This document shows, piece by piece, positions 17,743-62,368 of a stretch of DNA of 64,000 bases. A program made the translations under genes and the position numbers. The notes beneath the pieces are model-generated. The model made no database searches, was not told the origin of the DNA, and saw only the letters and a list, made by a program, of their open reading frames with translations. Position 1 is the stretch's first letter. The number at the start of each line of letters is the position of its first letter. The DNA comes from Gemmatimonadota bacterium (GTDB lineage: Bacteria; JAAXHH01), in the NCBI GenBank assembly GCA_026705925.1, contig JAPOZT010000017.1, positions 97,866 to 161,865 on the forward strand, read 5' to 3'.

Positions 17743-17946
17743 TTACTGACCTTCCTGGATTTCATTCGCGGTTAAATTGAAATAACCCTCGATCTTTGCG
17801 ATACGTTGTTCCACGTCACCGAGACGATTTTCTATCCTGTCCAACCTGTTGCGGACCCCGGTTACAAAGAAAATGTATAGACTGAACGCGCCAGCTATGA
17901 TGGCCGCGCCGACGGCTCTATCCGCCAATGACCTCGTAGTTGCCAT
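17743..17946 (-). CDS. Small protein: N-terminal TM helix plus coiled coil
   Basis: MATTRSLADRAVGAAIIAGAFSLYIFFVTGVRNRLDRIENRLGDVEQRIAKIEGYF. Confidence 0.45.
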   Translation of the reverse strand: MATTRSLADRAVGAAIIAGAFSLYIFFVTGVRNRLDRIENRLGDVEQRIAKIEGYFNLTANEIQEGQ

Positions 17947-18091
17947 GTCCTACCCTCCTGCGCTCTACTTTAGACGCTGTTTCTACATTTCTGATGTCGT
18001 TACAATTCCCTATAAGTCCAAGCGTACCTTAAACATACCGAATTGTTGACGTATTGTCAATACGGACAAACCTGTTGAAGAAGATTCCTTG

Positions 18092-34542: not shown

Positions 34543-35184
34543 TCAGCCAACAGAAGCCCGACGTGTTCTGGACGCGGATCTGCCCTGCTTCAACTCGTTG
34601 ACATCCGCGCTTAGCCCCGCGACTGTCGCGTCCATCCTCTCGACTGTCGCGTCCAATCTCTCGGCTGTCGCGTCCAATCTCTCGATTTTCGCGTCCATCC
34701 TCTCGATTTTAACGTCCATTCCCTCGATTCTGACATCCATTCCCTCGATTTTGGCGTCCATCTCATCCACCCGTCCATCCAGGGCCGTCATCCGTTCGTC
34801 CAGTCTGCCCTGTTGAATTTCGACGGTGTTCATTCTTTCGTCCAGCCGATCAAAACGCCGGTCAACAGCATCGAACCGTTTGTCAACTTCGGCAAACTGC
34901 CTGCCTACTTCATCAAACCGATCGTTCATAGTAGCAAATTGCGCATCGAATCGCTCGTTTTGGGCAACAAATCGCGCGTCGAACCGATCACTCATGGCTG
35001 CAAATCGCGCGTCGAATCGCTCGTCTTTCGCTTCCAGTTTCTCGTCCATCCGGTCGAGAATCCTTTTTTCCACTTCCAGCATTTCGGCCCTCACATTCCG
35101 CCTGCTCCCCTTGGCCTCCCGCCAGAAGAAGATAAAGGCCGTCACTAGTACGGCTGGCTGGATCCAGATCGATACGGTTTCCAC
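34543..35184 (-). CDS. TM plus long heptad-repeat coiled-coil protein
   Basis: METVSIWIQPAVLVTAFIFFWREAKG then FDARFAAMSDRFDARFVAQNERFDAQF... and MDAKIEGMDVRIEGMDVKIERMDAKIERLDATAERLDA. Confidence 0.7.
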   Translation of the reverse strand: METVSIWIQPAVLVTAFIFFWREAKGSRRNVRAEMLEVEKRILDRMDEKLEAKDERFDARFAAMSDRFDARFVAQNERFDAQFATMNDRFDEVGRQFAEVDKRFDAVDRRFDRLDERMNTVEIQQGRLDERMTALDGRVDEMDAKIEGMDVRIEGMDVKIERMDAKIERLDATAERLDATVERMDATVAGLSADVNELKQGRSASRTRRASVG

Positions 35185-35440
35185 TTCCTGGCTCCTTTCA
35201 AATGATCCGATACTATAGTGATTATAAATGGATTAGTGGAAATGCAAGCCACGATTCTTGTTTTTTCTTTTATATTCTTGACGTAACCGGTACGGCACTC
35301 CTATTCTGTGGCGCATTTTGCGGAACCGAGGAGCGTGGACGGCGCGCATATCGCGGGACGCGCAGTCAATCGCGGCCGAAGCATAGAGACCACGGGACCA
35401 CGGAACCACCAGTACGGGCAGGCCAACGGAGCAACCCAAC

Positions 35441-53571: not shown

Positions 53572-53644
53572 CTCACCGCGCCAGCTCACCGCACCAGCCA
53601 CGTGCTGATGGACGGCCCAGCTCACCGCGCCAGCCACGTGCTGA
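53572..53644. repeat. 36-bp tandem repeat containing the 3' end of the flanking PotD-like gene
   Basis: ctcaccgc(a/g)ccagccacgtgctgatggacggcccag at 53585 and 53621 plus partial at 53572. Confidence 0.85.
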
Positions 53645-54716
53645 AGCGCTCGTTCATCTCTTCGCCGTTGTCGCTCCACCATTCCCAATCGTCGTGCAGC
53701 GCGCGCGCCACGTTCTCCGGACTCGTGGGCATGTGAGGCCGCATGTCCACGCCCGTCTCGGAGTGGGTCGAGATCAGGGGCATGGCGGAACGGCGCGTTG
53801 GGCTGTAGGCGATGTGCCGGGCAAGGCTGGCCATGGACTCTGCCTGGCTGGCAAATTCGAGAAACCGGCGTGCGGCATCGAGGTTGCGCGTGCCCTCGAC
53901 GATGCCATAGCCGCTCGTATACAGTATCTGGCTGTTCCAGAGTATGACGAAGGGTTGTCCCTCAAGCTCCTGGGCATTGAAGATACGTCCATTGGCTGCC
54001 GTGGTCATCGTTACCTCTCCATCGGCCAGCATCTGTGGGGGATGGGCAGCCGTTTCCCACCATACGATCTGTTCCTTGATCGTGTCCAGTTTGCGGAACG
54101 CACGGCGCACACCGTCCTCGGTGTCAAGTGTGGTATACACATCCTCCCGCGGAACACCGTCAGCCATGAGGGCAAACTCGAGATTGGCCACCGGCGAACG
54201 TTTCATTCCCCGTCTGCCCGGAAACTTTTCCAGGTCGAAGAAGTCGGCTATCGTAGTGGGTTTCACGTCGCCGATTCGCTCGTCGTTGTACGCGATCATC
54301 CTCGAAAAGAACAACTTGGTTGCGCCGCATTCGGTGATCGTACCCTCTACAAAATCATCCGTTGCGGACGCGCCGTCGGCGCCCTTTGGCAGGTCGTCGA
54401 TGCTGACGGGAACGAGCAGCCCTTCGTCGCAACCCCGGACGAGTTCGGGCATATTCAGATCAACTACATCCCAGAACACGTTACCCATCTCCACCTGGGC
54501 TCGGATCTGCGCCAATCCTCCGGTGTAGTCCTCCAGGTTGATCTTGATGCCTGTTTCCGCCTCGAACCGTTCGTGGTAGCTTCTATCGCAGGCCCGAGCG
54601 TAAGAACCGCCGAAACTGACGACGGTGATCGTCTGGTTTTGGGCAGATACCTGGTCCGATGGATATACAGAAAGCCAGGCCAAGACCACGAAGGCCGAAA
54701 GGACGATACGAATCAT
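53622..54716 (-). CDS. ABC transporter substrate-binding protein, PotD-like (orphan paralog 1)
   Basis: MIRIVLSAFVVLAWLSVYPSDQVSAQNQTITVVSFGGSYARACDRSYHERFEAETGIKINLEDYTGGLAQIRAQVE...MNERFSTWLAR. Confidence 0.88.
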   Translation of the reverse strand: MIRIVLSAFVVLAWLSVYPSDQVSAQNQTITVVSFGGSYARACDRSYHERFEAETGIKINLEDYTGGLAQIRAQVEMGNVFWDVVDLNMPELVRGCDEGLLVPVSIDDLPKGADGASATDDFVEGTITECGATKLFFSRMIAYNDERIGDVKPTTIADFFDLEKFPGRRGMKRSPVANLEFALMADGVPREDVYTTLDTEDGVRRAFRKLDTIKEQIVWWETAAHPPQMLADGEVTMTTAANGRIFNAQELEGQPFVILWNSQILYTSGYGIVEGTRNLDAARRFLEFASQAESMASLARHIAYSPTRRSAMPLISTHSETGVDMRPHMPTSPENVARALHDDWEWWSDNGEEMNERFSTWLAR

Positions 54717-54762
54717 GGGGGATCTGCTCGGTATACGGTCTCCTGGCTCCTCATCGCGCCGA

Positions 54763-54858
54763 CTCACCGCGCCAGCCACGTGCTGATGGACAGCCCAGCT
54801 CACCGCGCCAGCCACGTGCTGATGGATGGCCCAGCTCACCGCGCCAGCCACGTGCTGA
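54763..54858. repeat. 36-bp tandem repeat x3 containing the 3' end of the second PotD-like gene
   Basis: ctcaccgcgccagccacgtgctgatgga... at 54763, 54799, 54835. Confidence 0.88.
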
Positions 54859-55948
54859 AACGCTCGTTCATCTCTTCGCCGTTGTCGCTCCACCATTCCC
54901 AGTCGTTGTGCAGGGCGCGCGCCACGTTCTCCGGGGTCGTGGGCATGTGCGGTCTCATGTCCAGGCCCGTCTCGGCGTGGGTCGAGATCAGGGGCATGGC
55001 GGATCGGCGCGTCGGACTGTAGGCGATGTACCGGGCGAGGCCGGCCATGGACTCCGCCGTGGCGGCGAAGTCGAAAAACCGGAGCGCGGCATCAAGGTTG
55101 CGCGTGCCTTCGACGATGCCGAACCCACTCGTATCCAGGACCTGGCCGTCCCAGACGATGACGAAAGGCTGATCCTCCAGCACCTGGGCGTTGAAGATGC
55201 GCCCGTTGTAGGCCGTGGTCATCACGACCTCGCCGTCGGCCAGCAACTGCGGCGGATGGGCCCCGGTCTCCCACCATATGATGTGTTCCTTGATGGTATC
55301 CAGCTTGCGGAAGGCCCGGGCGATGCCCGCCTCCGTGTCTAGCGTGGCATACACCTCGTCCAGCGGCACCCCGTCCGCCATCAGCGCGAATTCGAGATTG
55401 ACCCGCGGAACTCGACGCATGCCCCTGCGGCCCGGGAACTTTTCCAGGTCGAAGAAGTCGTTGACGGTCTTGGGCTTCACGTCGCCGATGCGTTCGTCGT
55501 TGTATGCAAAAACCGTCGAAAAGAACAGGGTCGTCACGCCGCATTCCGAGATCGTACCCTCAACGAAGTCGTCCACGGCCGGCGTGCCATCAGCGCCCGG
55601 AGAAAAATCGTCGATGCTGATCGGAGCAAGCAGTCCTTCATCGCAACCCCGGACGATATCGGCGATATTCATATCAACTACGTCCCAGTATACATTTCCC
55701 ACGTCCACCTGCGCGCGGATCTGCGCCAGCCCGCCGTTGTAGTCCTCGAAGTTGATCTTAATGCCCGTTTCCGCTTCGAACCGCTCGTGGTAGCCCTTCT
55801 CACAGGCGCGGGAGTAGGAGCCGCCGAAGCTGACGACGGTGATTGTCTGGTTCTGGGCCGACACCTGGCCCGGGGGATATGCGGCGAGCGACGCCAATAC
55901 GATCAGGGATGATAGGACGATGCGAAATATGGGGGAATTACTCGACAT
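54836..55948 (-). CDS. ABC transporter substrate-binding protein, PotD-like (orphan paralog 2)
   Basis: AQNQTITVVSFGGSYSRACEKGYHERFEAETGIKINFEDYNGGLAQIRAQVDVGNVYWDVVD...MNERFSTWLAR. Confidence 0.9.
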   Translation of the reverse strand: MSSNSPIFRIVLSSLIVLASLAAYPPGQVSAQNQTITVVSFGGSYSRACEKGYHERFEAETGIKINFEDYNGGLAQIRAQVDVGNVYWDVVDMNIADIVRGCDEGLLAPISIDDFSPGADGTPAVDDFVEGTISECGVTTLFFSTVFAYNDERIGDVKPKTVNDFFDLEKFPGRRGMRRVPRVNLEFALMADGVPLDEVYATLDTEAGIARAFRKLDTIKEHIIWWETGAHPPQLLADGEVVMTTAYNGRIFNAQVLEDQPFVIVWDGQVLDTSGFGIVEGTRNLDAALRFFDFAATAESMAGLARYIAYSPTRRSAMPLISTHAETGLDMRPHMPTTPENVARALHNDWEWWSDNGEEMNERFSTWLAR

Positions 55949-57169: not shown

Positions 57170-57955
57170 CTACCGCAGCAGGTCGCCCGGAATCCTGGAT
57201 CCTGGATACTCCGCATCAGCGTTGCGCTCGGCGATGATGGCCGGCACCGGATCGGTCCAATAGGCCGGAACGGTGTCGGGGCGCCGGTGCCACGCCAGCA
57301 CCAGGGTGCGGCGCTCGTCGGTCAGGTTTCGATGCGCCGAGTGCAGCACACGGGCATCGGCCAGTACCAGGTCGCCGGCCTTGACGCAGACCTCAACCTG
57401 GTCGGGGTGGTCGCTGAACATGGTGGGATGGTCTTCGGCAATGAAGCGGGCACCCTGTTCATGAGCCGGCACCAGCTGGTCGTGCAGCGGGATGCGCTTA
57501 AGGTGGGTGCCGGGGATGATCTTTAGGCATCCGTTTTCCCGCGAAGTATCGCTCAGGTAGTAGGACACGAAGATGATCTGCGGCCAGGGCGAGCAGCTCA
57601 ACGGATCGTTCCACTGCATCCAGTCCTGGTGCCAGTACAGTGCCGGTTCTCCGGGATCCTTGGTGAGAAGGATGACCCCACCGGTGCTGGCGAAGTCTCC
57701 CAGGCCCATCTGCTCAAGGGCGCGCCGCGTGGCGGGCCAGTCGAGCAGCTTCTGGATGATCGGGTTCTCAGCCCCCTGCGCGGTGACGTGCTGGCCCTGG
57801 TACCTGACGTCGGGTGGCGGCACCCAGTCTTCCATCATGCGCTCGGTTTCGATGCGCAGCTCCTGAAGGAAGGTGTCGCTGAGGATATCGTCGACCACGC
57901 AGAATCCGTCGCGCATTAGTTGTTGGCGCTTTTCAGTGGCTTGTTCGGGGGACAT
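57170..57955 (-). CDS. Phytanoyl-CoA dioxygenase (PhyH) family protein
   Basis: MRDGFCVVDDILSDTFLQELRIETERM...YWHQDWMQWNDPLSCSPWPQIIFVSYYLSDTSRENGCLKIIPGTHLKRIPLHD...LVLADARVLHSAHRNLTDERRTLVLAWHRRP. Confidence 0.92.
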   Translation of the reverse strand: MSPEQATEKRQQLMRDGFCVVDDILSDTFLQELRIETERMMEDWVPPPDVRYQGQHVTAQGAENPIIQKLLDWPATRRALEQMGLGDFASTGGVILLTKDPGEPALYWHQDWMQWNDPLSCSPWPQIIFVSYYLSDTSRENGCLKIIPGTHLKRIPLHDQLVPAHEQGARFIAEDHPTMFSDHPDQVEVCVKAGDLVLADARVLHSAHRNLTDERRTLVLAWHRRPDTVPAYWTDPVPAIIAERNADAEYPGSRIPGDLLR

Positions 57956-58325
57956 GGGATCCTCGTTGTGTGTGGTGAAGCCAGGTCTTTCGATCAATTC
58001 AATCCAGGGAGGCGGAAAACAAGGTATCTACAAAGTATACACGAAACAAGATCGACTAGTGACCCAATCGTAGATTCCCACTACTGGGTCCGCTTTTTCT
58101 TCTCCTTTTACGCCCGCAATACAACGCTCGCCCAAATCCGCACTCTGAATCCGCACAACAGTCGCCTCAGTCACGCCAGCCCGCACGCAAAATCCCATTT
58201 TCGCGCGATTGTTACCAGATTAGCTAAGATTTCTACGACTGATTCGTAAAGGAGCGTTGGTCGCTCACATCGATTCTACGCACGAATGAGACCATTCACC
58301 CGATTTGCAAGGGAGGAATTCGAAC

Positions 58326-58550
58326 ATGGAACTCGCTCAACTTCTCATATCGCCAGGCATGTTGCTGGCGGCCTTCATCTTCTTCTGGCAACAGAACAGA
58401 ATCATCATCGACGAACTGAAGAGAGAGATCGTGCCGCTACGCAAGGAGATCACATCCATCCGTGACGAAATGCACGACATGAACGGACGTCTCGGCCGCG
58501 TAGAGGGTCTGTTGATGACCCTGGACTTCGAAAAACTGCGTAAGAAGTAG
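58326..58550 (+). CDS. Small TM plus coiled-coil protein, tandem paralog 1 of 3
   Basis: MELAQLLISPGMLLAAFIFFWQQNRIIIDELKREIVPLRKEITSIRDEMHDMNGRLGRVEGLLMTL; gggagg RBS. Confidence 0.75.
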   Translation: MELAQLLISPGMLLAAFIFFWQQNRIIIDELKREIVPLRKEITSIRDEMHDMNGRLGRVEGLLMTLDFEKLRKK

Positions 58551-58635
58551 CCGAATCCCGACTGGCGCATTGGCCGGAACGAGAGTGTCTGGCACGCCTG
58601 CCGAACCAGGTTACTCACAAATAGGAGGTAAGACC

Positions 58636-58959
58636 ATGGAACTTGCTCAGCTTCTTGTCACACCAACCACCTTGTTGATGGCCTTCATCTTCTTTTGGAA
58701 GCAGGCCAAAACCGGCAGGGAAGAACTGAGGCGGGAATTGAAGTCAGATATGAGAGATTTGAAGTCTGATATGAGGGATTTGAAGTCTGAACTGAAAACA
58801 GATATGAAAGAACTGAAGGATGAGTTTAAGGAAGAAACAACATCGATTCGCAACGAGGTCGCTTCCATTCGTCTAGAAATGCACGACATGAACGGACGTC
58901 TCAGTCGCGTCGAGGGCCTGCTGATGACATCCGACGTCGCACGATCAGGCAAGGAGTGA
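58636..58959 (+). CDS. Small TM plus coiled-coil protein, tandem paralog 2 of 3
   Basis: MELAQLLVTPTTLLMAFIFFWKQAKTGREELRRELKSDMRDLKSDMRDLKSELKTDMKELKDE...EMHDMNGRLSRVEGLLMTS. Confidence 0.78.
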   Translation: MELAQLLVTPTTLLMAFIFFWKQAKTGREELRRELKSDMRDLKSDMRDLKSELKTDMKELKDEFKEETTSIRNEVASIRLEMHDMNGRLSRVEGLLMTSDVARSGKE

Positions 58960-59045
58960 GGACAGTAAACATGGTATAAGCAGCAAGGCGAGCGGACCTG
59001 GAATAACTGCCGGACTACACCCAAATCCAAGAAGGAGGAAAGACC

Positions 59046-59303
59046 ATGATGGAACTTGCCCAGCTTCTCCTGACACCAGTTACACTGCTAACGGCCTTCA
59101 TCTTCTTCTGGAAACAGACCAAGGCCATAAGTAACGAACTGAGACGGGAACTGAAGTCAGATATGAAGGAAATGAAGGAGGAGTTAAAGGGAGAGATCGC
59201 GTCCGTGCGTACGGAAGTTACCGCCATCCGGGAAGAAACGCACGACATGAACGGACGGCTCGGACGCGTTGAGGGTCTGCTGAAGATCACGGATTCCGGT
59301 TGA
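59046..59303 (+). CDS. Small TM plus coiled-coil protein, tandem paralog 3 of 3
   Basis: MMELAQLLLTPVTLLTAFIFFWKQTKAISNELRRELKSDMKEMKEELKGEIASVRTEVTAIREETHDMNGRLGRVEGLLKI; aaggagg RBS. Confidence 0.78.
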   Translation: MMELAQLLLTPVTLLTAFIFFWKQTKAISNELRRELKSDMKEMKEELKGEIASVRTEVTAIREETHDMNGRLGRVEGLLKITDSG

Positions 59304-59318
59304 ATCCGGCGAACGGTC

Positions 59319-60860
59319 TCAGTCCCCGGCCAGCTTCTTGCGGAGCAACTCGTTCACCATCTTCGGATTCGCTTTGCCCTGGGTCACGCGCATGACCTGG
59401 CCCATGAAGAAGCCGAGGAGTTTGGTCTTTCCGGCGCGATATTCGGCGACGTCGTCTGGATGATCGGCGAGGATGCCGTCGACGACGCCTTCGAGTTCGC
59501 CGGTGTCCGAGATCTGTACGAGGCCCTGCTCCTCGATGACCTGAACCGGTGCCTTGCCGGTCTCGGCCATGGCATCGAGCACGTCCTTACCGATCTTGCC
59601 GCTGATCTTGCCTTCCTTGATCTGTCCGAGGAGCTGGGCGAGGTGATCGGGTGGAATTCGGGCTTCGAGGGTCTGATGGTCGATACGGCTTTCGTGCTGG
59701 ACACGCAGGAGTTCACTGAGCATCCAGTTGCTGACGGTGCGAGCGTCGGCGGATGGCTTGCCGGCCGATCCTCCTGCTGCAACACCGGATGCCCCGCCAG
59801 CCGCATCGCCAACCGCATGGGAGACGCATGCCTCGAAGTAGTCGGCCCGGGTCCGGTTCTCCGTCAGTTGCCGCGCCATGTCCTGCGGCAGTCTGTAGTC
59901 GTCGACGAAGCGCCGCATGCGCACGTCGGGGAGTTCGGGCAGGTCTTCGCCGATCTCGTCCACCCAGGAGCGGGCAATTTCGACGGTTACGAGATCGGGG
60001 TCGGGGAAGTACCGGTAGTCGTGGGCTTCCTCCTTCGACCGCATGGGGAAGGTCTCCCGCTTCTCCTCGTCCCACAGGCGGGTCTGGCGCACGACGGTGC
60101 CGCCGTCTTCGAGCAGCTCGGACTGCCTGGCGATTTCGAATTCGAGCGCGCGTTCCATGGATCGCATGGAGTTCATGTTCTTGATCTCGACGAGTTCGCC
60201 CAGGGGATCGCCGGGCTTGCGGATGGACACGTTGGCGTCGCAGCGCAGGCTGCCCTCATCCATGTTGCCGTCGCAGACGCCGATGTACTGCAGGATCTGC
60301 CGCAGCCGGGCGAGATAGGCCGAGGCTTCGCGGGGACTGCGGATGTCCGGTTCGCTGACGATCTCCATCAGGGGCACGCCCGTCCGGTTGAAATCGATGT
60401 AGCTCAGATCCGGATCGTACCCGGGTTCGTTGTGGATGGACTTGCCGGCTTCTTCCTCCAGGTGGATCCGCCGGAGCCGGACGAAGCGGGGGCCGTCCTC
60501 GCCCTCGATCTCGATGCCGCCGGCCAGGGAAATGGGCTCGCCCGCCCGGTCGTACTGCGAGATCTGGTAGCCCTTGGGCAGGTCCGGATAGAAGTAGTTC
60601 TTGCGGGCGAAGGCGCTGGTTTCGGCCACGTGGCCGTCCACGGCCAGGGCCATGCGGATCGTGTATTCAACGGCGCGGCGGTTCAGGACGGGCAGGACGC
60701 CGGGCATGCCGAGACAGATGGGGCAGACGCGGGTATTTGGTTCGCCGCCGAAGGCCACGGCGCATCCGCAGAAGATCTTCGAGTTGGTCAGGAGCTGGGC
60801 GTGCACTTCCAGCCCGATCACGGATTCGTAGTTCATGTTTCCTTGCTCGTTTGCGCTCAT
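59319..60860 (-). CDS. gatB: Asp-tRNA(Asn)/Glu-tRNA(Gln) amidotransferase subunit B
   Basis: [23 protein letters not shown]...[25 protein letters not shown]...[16 protein letters not shown]. Confidence 0.96.
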
Positions 60861-62368
60861 GACCGCGTCGCCTCCTCGAAGGCGTAGGCCGCTCTCAGAA
60901 TCCGCTCCTCGCCGAAGTGGGGACCGATGATCTGCAGGCCGACGGGCATGCCGCCTGGATCCGTTCCGCAAGGCAGGGAGATGGCCGGAACGCCGGCGAG
61001 GTTGATGGGCACGGTATAGACGTCGGACAGGTACATCTGCAGCGGGTCGTCGATCTTCTCGCCGATGCGGAAGGCGGTGGTGGGCGTGGTGGGCGCCACC
61101 AGGAGGTCGACCTTTTCAAAGGCCTGGTCGAAGTCGCCCTTGATGAGCGTGCGCACACGCTGGGCCTTGTCGTAGTAGGCATCGTAGTAGCCGGCGCTGA
61201 GCACGTAGGTACCGAGCATGATCCGGCGCTTCACCTCGAGGCCGAACCCCCCGCTGCGGGTCGATCCGTACATGGCGTCCAACCGGTCTTCGGGCGCGAG
61301 CGCAGGCGCGCCGACTCCGGCTCCGCTGCTGGTCGGCGCATCAACGGCAGGCGCGCCGCCATCTTCACCCCGGTACCCGTACTTCACCCCGTCATATCGT
61401 GCCAGGTTGGAGGAGGCTTCCGCGGTGACCAGGATATAGTACGCGGCCACGGCGTATTCGGTGTGGGGCAGGTGGACGCTTTCCACGCGGGCGCCGAGGG
61501 ATTCCATGCGTTCGATGGCCCGGCTTACGCTTTCCTTCACGGAAGGGTCGAGGCCCTCGGCCAGGTATTCTTCGGGTACGCCGATGCGCACCCCTTCGAT
61601 GCCGCGCTTCAGGTCTGCCGTGTAGTCCGGCACCGCTTCCGATGCCGACGTGGTGTCCATGGGGTCGTGGCCCGCGATGACGCCCAGTAGCCGCGCGCAG
61701 TCTTCCACGTTCCGGGCCATGGGTCCGACCTGGTCGAAAGAGGATCCGTAGGCGATGATGCCGAAGCGGGAGACCCGTCCGTAGGTGGGCTTGAGTCCCA
61801 CGACGCCGCAGAAAGCCGCGGGCTGGCGGATCGAACCGCCCGTGTCCTCGCCCAGGGCCAGGACCGCCGTGCCCGCCGCCAGGGCCGCGGCGGAACCCCC
61901 GCTTGAGCCGCCCGGCACGCGGGAGGTATCCAGGGGGTTCCGGCAGACGTCGAACACGGAGTTCTCGTTGGAGGACCCCATGCCGAACTGGTCCATGTTG
62001 GTCTTGCCGACGATCACGGCGTCCGCCGCGCGCAACCGGGCGATGACGGTGGCGTCGTAGGGCGGCACGAATCCCTCAAGTATCCGGGAAGCACAGGTGG
62101 TTTCCAGGCCTTTCGTGCAGATGGCGTCCTTGATGGCGATGGGCACGCCGGCCAGCGGTCCGGTCGTTTCGCCGGCAGCGACACGGCGGTCCACCTCCTG
62201 CGCGTCTTCTATCACCGACTCCGGGTCGACCGCGAGATAGGCGTTGATGGCGGGGTCTTTCTCTTCGATGAGGCGCAGGACTTCCCTGGCCGTCTCTTCC
62301 GCGGTCATCTCGCCGGACTTGATCCGCGGCGCCAGGTCGTGGGCCGCCATTTCGATTAAGTTTGCCAC
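60857..62368 (-). CDS. gatA: Asp-tRNA(Asn)/Glu-tRNA(Gln) amidotransferase subunit A
   Basis: [24 protein letters not shown]...[52 protein letters not shown] amidase signature; 4-nt overlap with gatB. Confidence 0.96.

Follow-up and report, generated by a model that had tools for sequence, protein, structure and literature searches.

A tandem triplet of N-anchored coiled-coil genes

The window, a 64,000-nucleotide stretch belonging to a 3.77 Mb genome, carries three same-strand ORFs of 74, 107 and 85 amino acids, each with a GGAGG ribosome-binding site on its 5′ side: copy 1 at 58326–58550 (+; GGAGG at 58312), copy 2 at 58636–58959 (+; GGAGG at 58624) and copy 3 at 59046–59303 (+; GGAGG at 59034), in which a second ATG at 59049 would give an alternative product of 84 amino acids. 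On the left lies a phytanoyl-CoA dioxygenase-like ORF (57170–57997, −), which we take to be PhyH, and on the right, convergent with copy 3, a GatB-like ORF (59319–60971, −), presumably Asp/Glu-tRNA amidotransferase subunit B. Both neighbours, at 91–97% and 85–92% identity, respectively, adjoin the locus in ten congeners, and phyH and gatB flank it in 10 of 10 congeners with flanks read. Separately, a 49-residue C-terminal fragment of GatB lies beyond phyH in L056 (1144–1290), on the far side from intact gatB. A scan for sigma-70 promoters found nothing.

The three products share a common plan, comprising a 21-residue hydrophobic head (consensus MELAQLL..P..LL.AFIFFW), a charged arm of variable length and a 14-residue constant tail (consensus HDMNGRL[GS]RVEGLL). 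The transmembrane heads are MELAQLLISPGMLLAAFIFFW in copy 1 (58326–58388, +; best 19-residue Kyte–Doolittle mean 1.92, from residue 3), MELAQLLVTPTTLLMAFIFFW in copy 2 (58636–58698, +; 1.76) and MELAQLLLTPVTLLTAFIFFW in copy 3 (59049–59111, +; 1.86). The tails are HDMNGRLGRVEGLL in copies 1 (58473–58514, +) and 3 (59241–59282, +) and HDMNGRLSRVEGLL in copy 2 (58882–58923, +), and each contains an R-h-x-x-h-E hexamer, at 58488–58505, 59256–59273 and 58897–58914, respectively. Between the head Trp and the Arg of this motif lie 33 residues in copy 1, 66 in copy 2 and 48 in copy 3. The copy 2 arm is lengthened by heptad units (LKSDMRD), one 21-nucleotide unit corresponding to seven residues, or one heptad; Tandem Repeats Finder placed a 21-nucleotide tandem repeat at 58733–58790 (+; 2.8 copies, score 95, 89% matches), and a repeat search (family D3) found more units of this length. 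The preliminary description of this DNA, which reported three tandem genes with their own ribosome-binding sites, a membrane head and coiled coil with constant ends and a variable middle, and in-frame repeat units in copy 2, thus holds in these respects; the analysis adds a genus-wide family, turn-quantised length, copy-number change by recombination and a trimerization motif.

Synteny across the genus and dN/dS establish that the three ORFs are real genes and not chance reading frames. Aligned with orthologues from 7, 9 and 11 genomes, copies 1, 2 and 3 had dN/dS values of 0.28, 0.14 and 0.12, respectively. By part, pairwise dN/dS was 0.02–0.04 in the tail (0.02, 0.04 and 0.04 for copies 1–3), 0.05–0.12 in the head (0.12, 0.05 and 0.07) and 0.17–0.70 in the arm, with purifying selection strongest in the tail and head. 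Of the 10 congener loci that were read, 7 keep all three copies (with the window, 8 of 11); G001 has two, G005 two and a headless relic, and G003 only one. In G001 the copy 1 leader stands 5′ of the copy 2 body, and in G003 it stands 5′ of a copy-3-like body, chimaeras that are the expected remnant of recombination between tandem copies and that indicate how copy number at this locus appears to change.

A genus-wide family

The host is an uncultured bacterium of a Latescibacterota genus, the named relatives being Latescibacterota metagenome bins, some of them labelled Gemmatimonadetes. Bin names and papers on sponge Latescibacterota suggest that the genus is probably sponge-associated. A first family profile matched 120 ORFs in 81 DNA stretches, and 107 members were sorted by head sequence into seven classes, A to G, of which class A takes in the AFIFFW heads and has four tail versions. 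The host genome itself gave 16 matches to the family profile at E ≤ 1e-5, one gene being split into two matches, and 22 matches at E ≤ 10 with copy 3 as query; about 17 distinct family genes were read there. The family is real, uncharacterised and structurally well defined.

Each of the 12 genomes of the genus contained 6–23 matches to the family profile at E ≤ 1e-5, and four other genomes of the phylum contained none, even at E ≤ 1. A scan of 84,980 species genomes, seeded by two short peptide patterns and therefore limited in reach to fairly close relatives, returned 35 loci; they came from seven bins, every one of which bears Latescibacterota or Gemmatimonadetes in its title. As far as these searches reached, the family so far appears to be confined to one genus. 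A literature search gave no match for AFIFFW, and among the papers listed none was relevant to the expansion of coiled-coil families in sponge symbionts or to turn-quantised indels.

Members outside tandem arrays are single and occupy fixed syntenic sites among unrelated genes. A mobile element was considered and rejected, as the flanks of nine subfamilies are syntenic between genomes. One long member in the window, with the head ..SIWIQPAVLVTAFIFFWREAKGSRR and a very long arm, lies at 34543–35232 (−; coordinates from stop to stop, start codon uncertain); it matches the family profile at E 5.6e-7 and is syntenic in L118, L141, L146 and L153. Congeners of this gene begin SMEVETIS and the window reads SQEVETVS, with Met replaced by Gln, so translation must begin at some later codon (GTG, for example) or its start is uncertain.

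Arm length varies in whole helical turns

Distances between a head anchor and the motif Arg were measured group by group, free of alignment, in ten groups. They range from 33 to 169 residues across the family, and in group A1 take the values 33, 37, 44, 48, 51, 55, 59, 62, 66, 70 and 77. Over the ten groups the distances were in phase at a period of 3.65 residues with a mean resultant of 0.90, a value reached by 0 of 5,000 random sets (maximum 0.65). Clusters of close relatives showed 31 gap events, of which 30 measured 4, 7, 11, 14, 18, 22, 29, 33 or 44 residues, and the arms of copies 1–3 differ by 15, 18 and 33 residues, or 4, 5 and 9 turns. Arm length therefore varies in whole helical turns.

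The arms also have the periodicity and predicted fold of a coiled coil. Their hydrophobic period was 3.56–3.60 in copies 1, 2 and 3, a periodicity that, for copies 1 and 3 taken singly, attains no more than modest significance (reached by 54 and 52 of 2,000 shuffles, respectively). AlphaFold2, run on copy 2 with 37 family members, predicted a single helix spanning residues 3–105 (mean pLDDT 86; pTM 0.41, as a monomer). Profile matches in the PDB were coiled coils, including known trimeric ones, with reovirus sigma-1 the best (3.6e-5) and designed and viral helix bundles lower in the list. Positive residues after the head predict an N-out, C-in topology.

Quantisation might instead be a by-product, with 21- and 33-nucleotide arm repeats slipping by whole units and the arm serving as a passive linker whose phase is unselected. 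The 21-nucleotide repeat of copy 2 and the visible 11-residue repeats of other classes (LEDKMDKRFVA, EMQEEFKAVRA) speak for slippage, but 4-residue steps are common and turn up at several sites, and combinations such as 15, 18 and 29 keep to the phase of a single period over ten head groups; we consider this reading improbable. Slippage of 21- and 33-nucleotide repeats could still contribute in part: it may generate the turn steps, which would then be kept because selection favours a hydrophobic seam without breaks. With two constant ends and a turn-stepped arm in 12 genomes, the family amounts to a clean natural experiment in how coiled coils evolve.

A putative trimerization motif closes the coil

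The hexamer R-h-x-x-h-E, published for parallel coiled coils as a trimerization motif (Kammerer 2005, as cited in PMC6173795), occurred within 40 residues of the C terminus in 103 of 107 members compared with 5.4 expected from shuffles. The 103 occurrences do not represent independent events, since the tails are for the most part homologous and also form part of the profile used to find the members. Motif density was 0.043 per site in the last 30 residues versus 0.008 in the arm. The hexamer differs between subfamilies (RLGRVE, RFDRLE, RIARIE and RVGRLE), and R, h, h and E are kept in all; it is this retention of the same four positions by four divergent hexamers that is informative.

In parallel trimeric coiled coils the motif takes the register R(g)-h(a)-x-x-h(d)-E(e) (PMC3653964), and FapF provides a bacterial example of such a trimer (PMC6173795). 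The family motif has the same Arg(g)-h(a)-x-x-h(d)-Glu(e) register within a continuous heptad coil, and the core positions next to it are hydrophobic and fit that register (a M/I, d M/V, a L). The likeness to published trimers thus extends to the exact hexamer, its g-a-d-e register, its location at the C terminus of a heptad coil and its presence in divergent tail versions; the family differs in that the motif closes an N-anchored membrane protein, for which a trimer is predicted.

Predicted homotrimeric rods

We consider it fairly probable that family members form N-anchored parallel homotrimeric rods with a cytoplasmic tail clamp, functioning as tethers or spacers. Each gene would encode one continuous alpha-helix with around 20 residues in the membrane, followed by a cytoplasmic coiled-coil arm that is closed by the R-h-x-x-h-E clamp. 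Three chains encoded by one gene would zip into a parallel trimeric rod on the membrane, nucleated and fixed by the clamp, with a membrane-to-clamp reach of roughly 5, 7 and 10 nm for copies 1, 3 and 2, respectively. The arm would act as a spacer that grows or shrinks in evolution by whole helical turns (4, 7 or 11 residues), only such steps being tolerated because others would break the hydrophobic seam running from anchor to clamp, and unequal length would keep paralogues apart. The rods would present a near-invariant tail surface to a partner, the tail likely serving as both clamp and docking surface; the context of the genes offered no clue to this partner.

The preliminary description had instead suggested hetero-oligomers of different reach, in which copies 1–3 would be co-expressed and mix through their common tail, leaving the extra arm looped or unpaired. 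Co-expression would suit tandem same-strand genes that are 85–86 nucleotides apart and between which a search found no terminator-like site, and mixing would suit identical or near-identical tails and the retention of three copies at the loci counted above. However, three congeners lack one or two copies, and lengths have drifted separately for each copy and in each genome. Homotrimers are also likelier because, with heads in one membrane plane and a common clamp bearing a parallel-trimer motif, chains whose arms measure 33, 48 and 66 residues could not stay in register over their full length. The suggestion of hetero-oligomers is therefore unsupported, and we regard it as unlikely.

A more ambitious form of the homotrimer reading, in which each genome would deploy 10–20 paralogous trimers with a common clamp as length-coded orthogonal rods, turn-step arm length both setting the standoff and stopping mixing, seems to us doubtful. 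The family makes testable whether length mismatch alone insulates paralogous membrane oligomers, and it offers a candidate structural component for sponge-associated Latescibacterota, whose cell biology is poorly known.

Comparison with known families

Pfam, NCBIfam, PHROGs and PADLOC yielded generic coil matches only, none above the curated cut-off where one exists, in keeping with the initial impression that the genes belong to no recognised family, and the phage records and viral contigs searched contained no relative. Like DUF1640/CCDC90-like proteins (best E 6e-5, coil only, below cut-off), the family consists of small prokaryotic membrane proteins with a coiled-coil stalk. The DUF1640/CCDC90 anchor is C-terminal, whereas the family described here is N-anchored, its hydrophobic stretch occupying residues 3–21. 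DUF1640 proteins have a beta-layer motif at the start of the C-terminal stalk (PMC4786415). Against the DUF1640 model (PF07798), copy 2 scored 19.9 bits, compared with a gathering cut-off of 33.5, over the coil part only.

Multi-copy paralogues with repeat arms also recall the Bdr proteins of Borrelia, and tblastn matched 16 Borrelia plasmid records (E 1e-3 to 4e-3 among the matches listed). The matches listed begin at query residue 23 or 29, outside the head. The transmembrane segment of Bdr is C-terminal and follows the repeat arm, unlike the N-terminal segment here. Since they leave the head uncovered, the plasmid matches to Borrelia Bdr and DUF1640 were not accepted as homology.

BhlA/UviB-type holins and PspB, like the family, are short proteins with an N-terminal transmembrane segment and a charged coil; family genes differ in standing outside any phage or psp context. 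Holin_BhlA was absent among the Pfam matches listed for the three copies and 37 members, and PspB (PF06667) matched one subfamily only, at E 0.042, below its cut-off. That the family comprises small membrane-active proteins of holin, spanin or toxin type, with the head permeabilising or stressing the membrane and the coil controlling assembly, is very unlikely: a single N-terminal segment and charged coil in fewer than 120 amino acids resemble BhlA-type holins, weak PHROGs matches include Rz-like spanins (E about 0.006) and one head class touches Hol_Tox (E 0.087), but phage records and viral contigs are without a match, no model exceeds its cut-off, the genes occupy fixed chromosomal sites among metabolic genes, and constraint peaks in the tail rather than in the transmembrane head.

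Related and neighbouring reading frames

Elsewhere in the window, at 17743–17949 (−), another small ORF with a transmembrane segment and coil, MATTRSLADRAVGAAIIAGAFSLYIFFVTGVRNRLDRIENRLGDVEQRIAKIEGYF, has its own R-h-x-x-h-E hexamer (RLDRIE). Small proteins of opposite topology, with the coil first, the transmembrane segment last and an RLTRIEEKL motif, are encoded near or adjoining family members in L061 (8602–9387, −) and L066 (6410–6688, −); their DUF2730/XhlA scores are sub-threshold. Members with a QPLIL head are adjoined by a second small transmembrane/coil gene (MDATNVISNVVVIGILLFVWRSLDMRIS...) in L065 (5452–5760, −) and also in L109, L116, L143 and L152, forming a conserved pair. In L148 (1730–2089, −), a class A copy has its tail replaced by a simple repeat of RSGRSGQSG type and is apparently degenerate or frameshifted. 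Finally, the window contains tandem paralogous proteins at 53622–54896 (−) and 54836–55948 (−), which by eye we take to resemble periplasmic solute-binding proteins, with a 36-nucleotide tandem repeat (2.7 copies, 54763–54858) at their junction.
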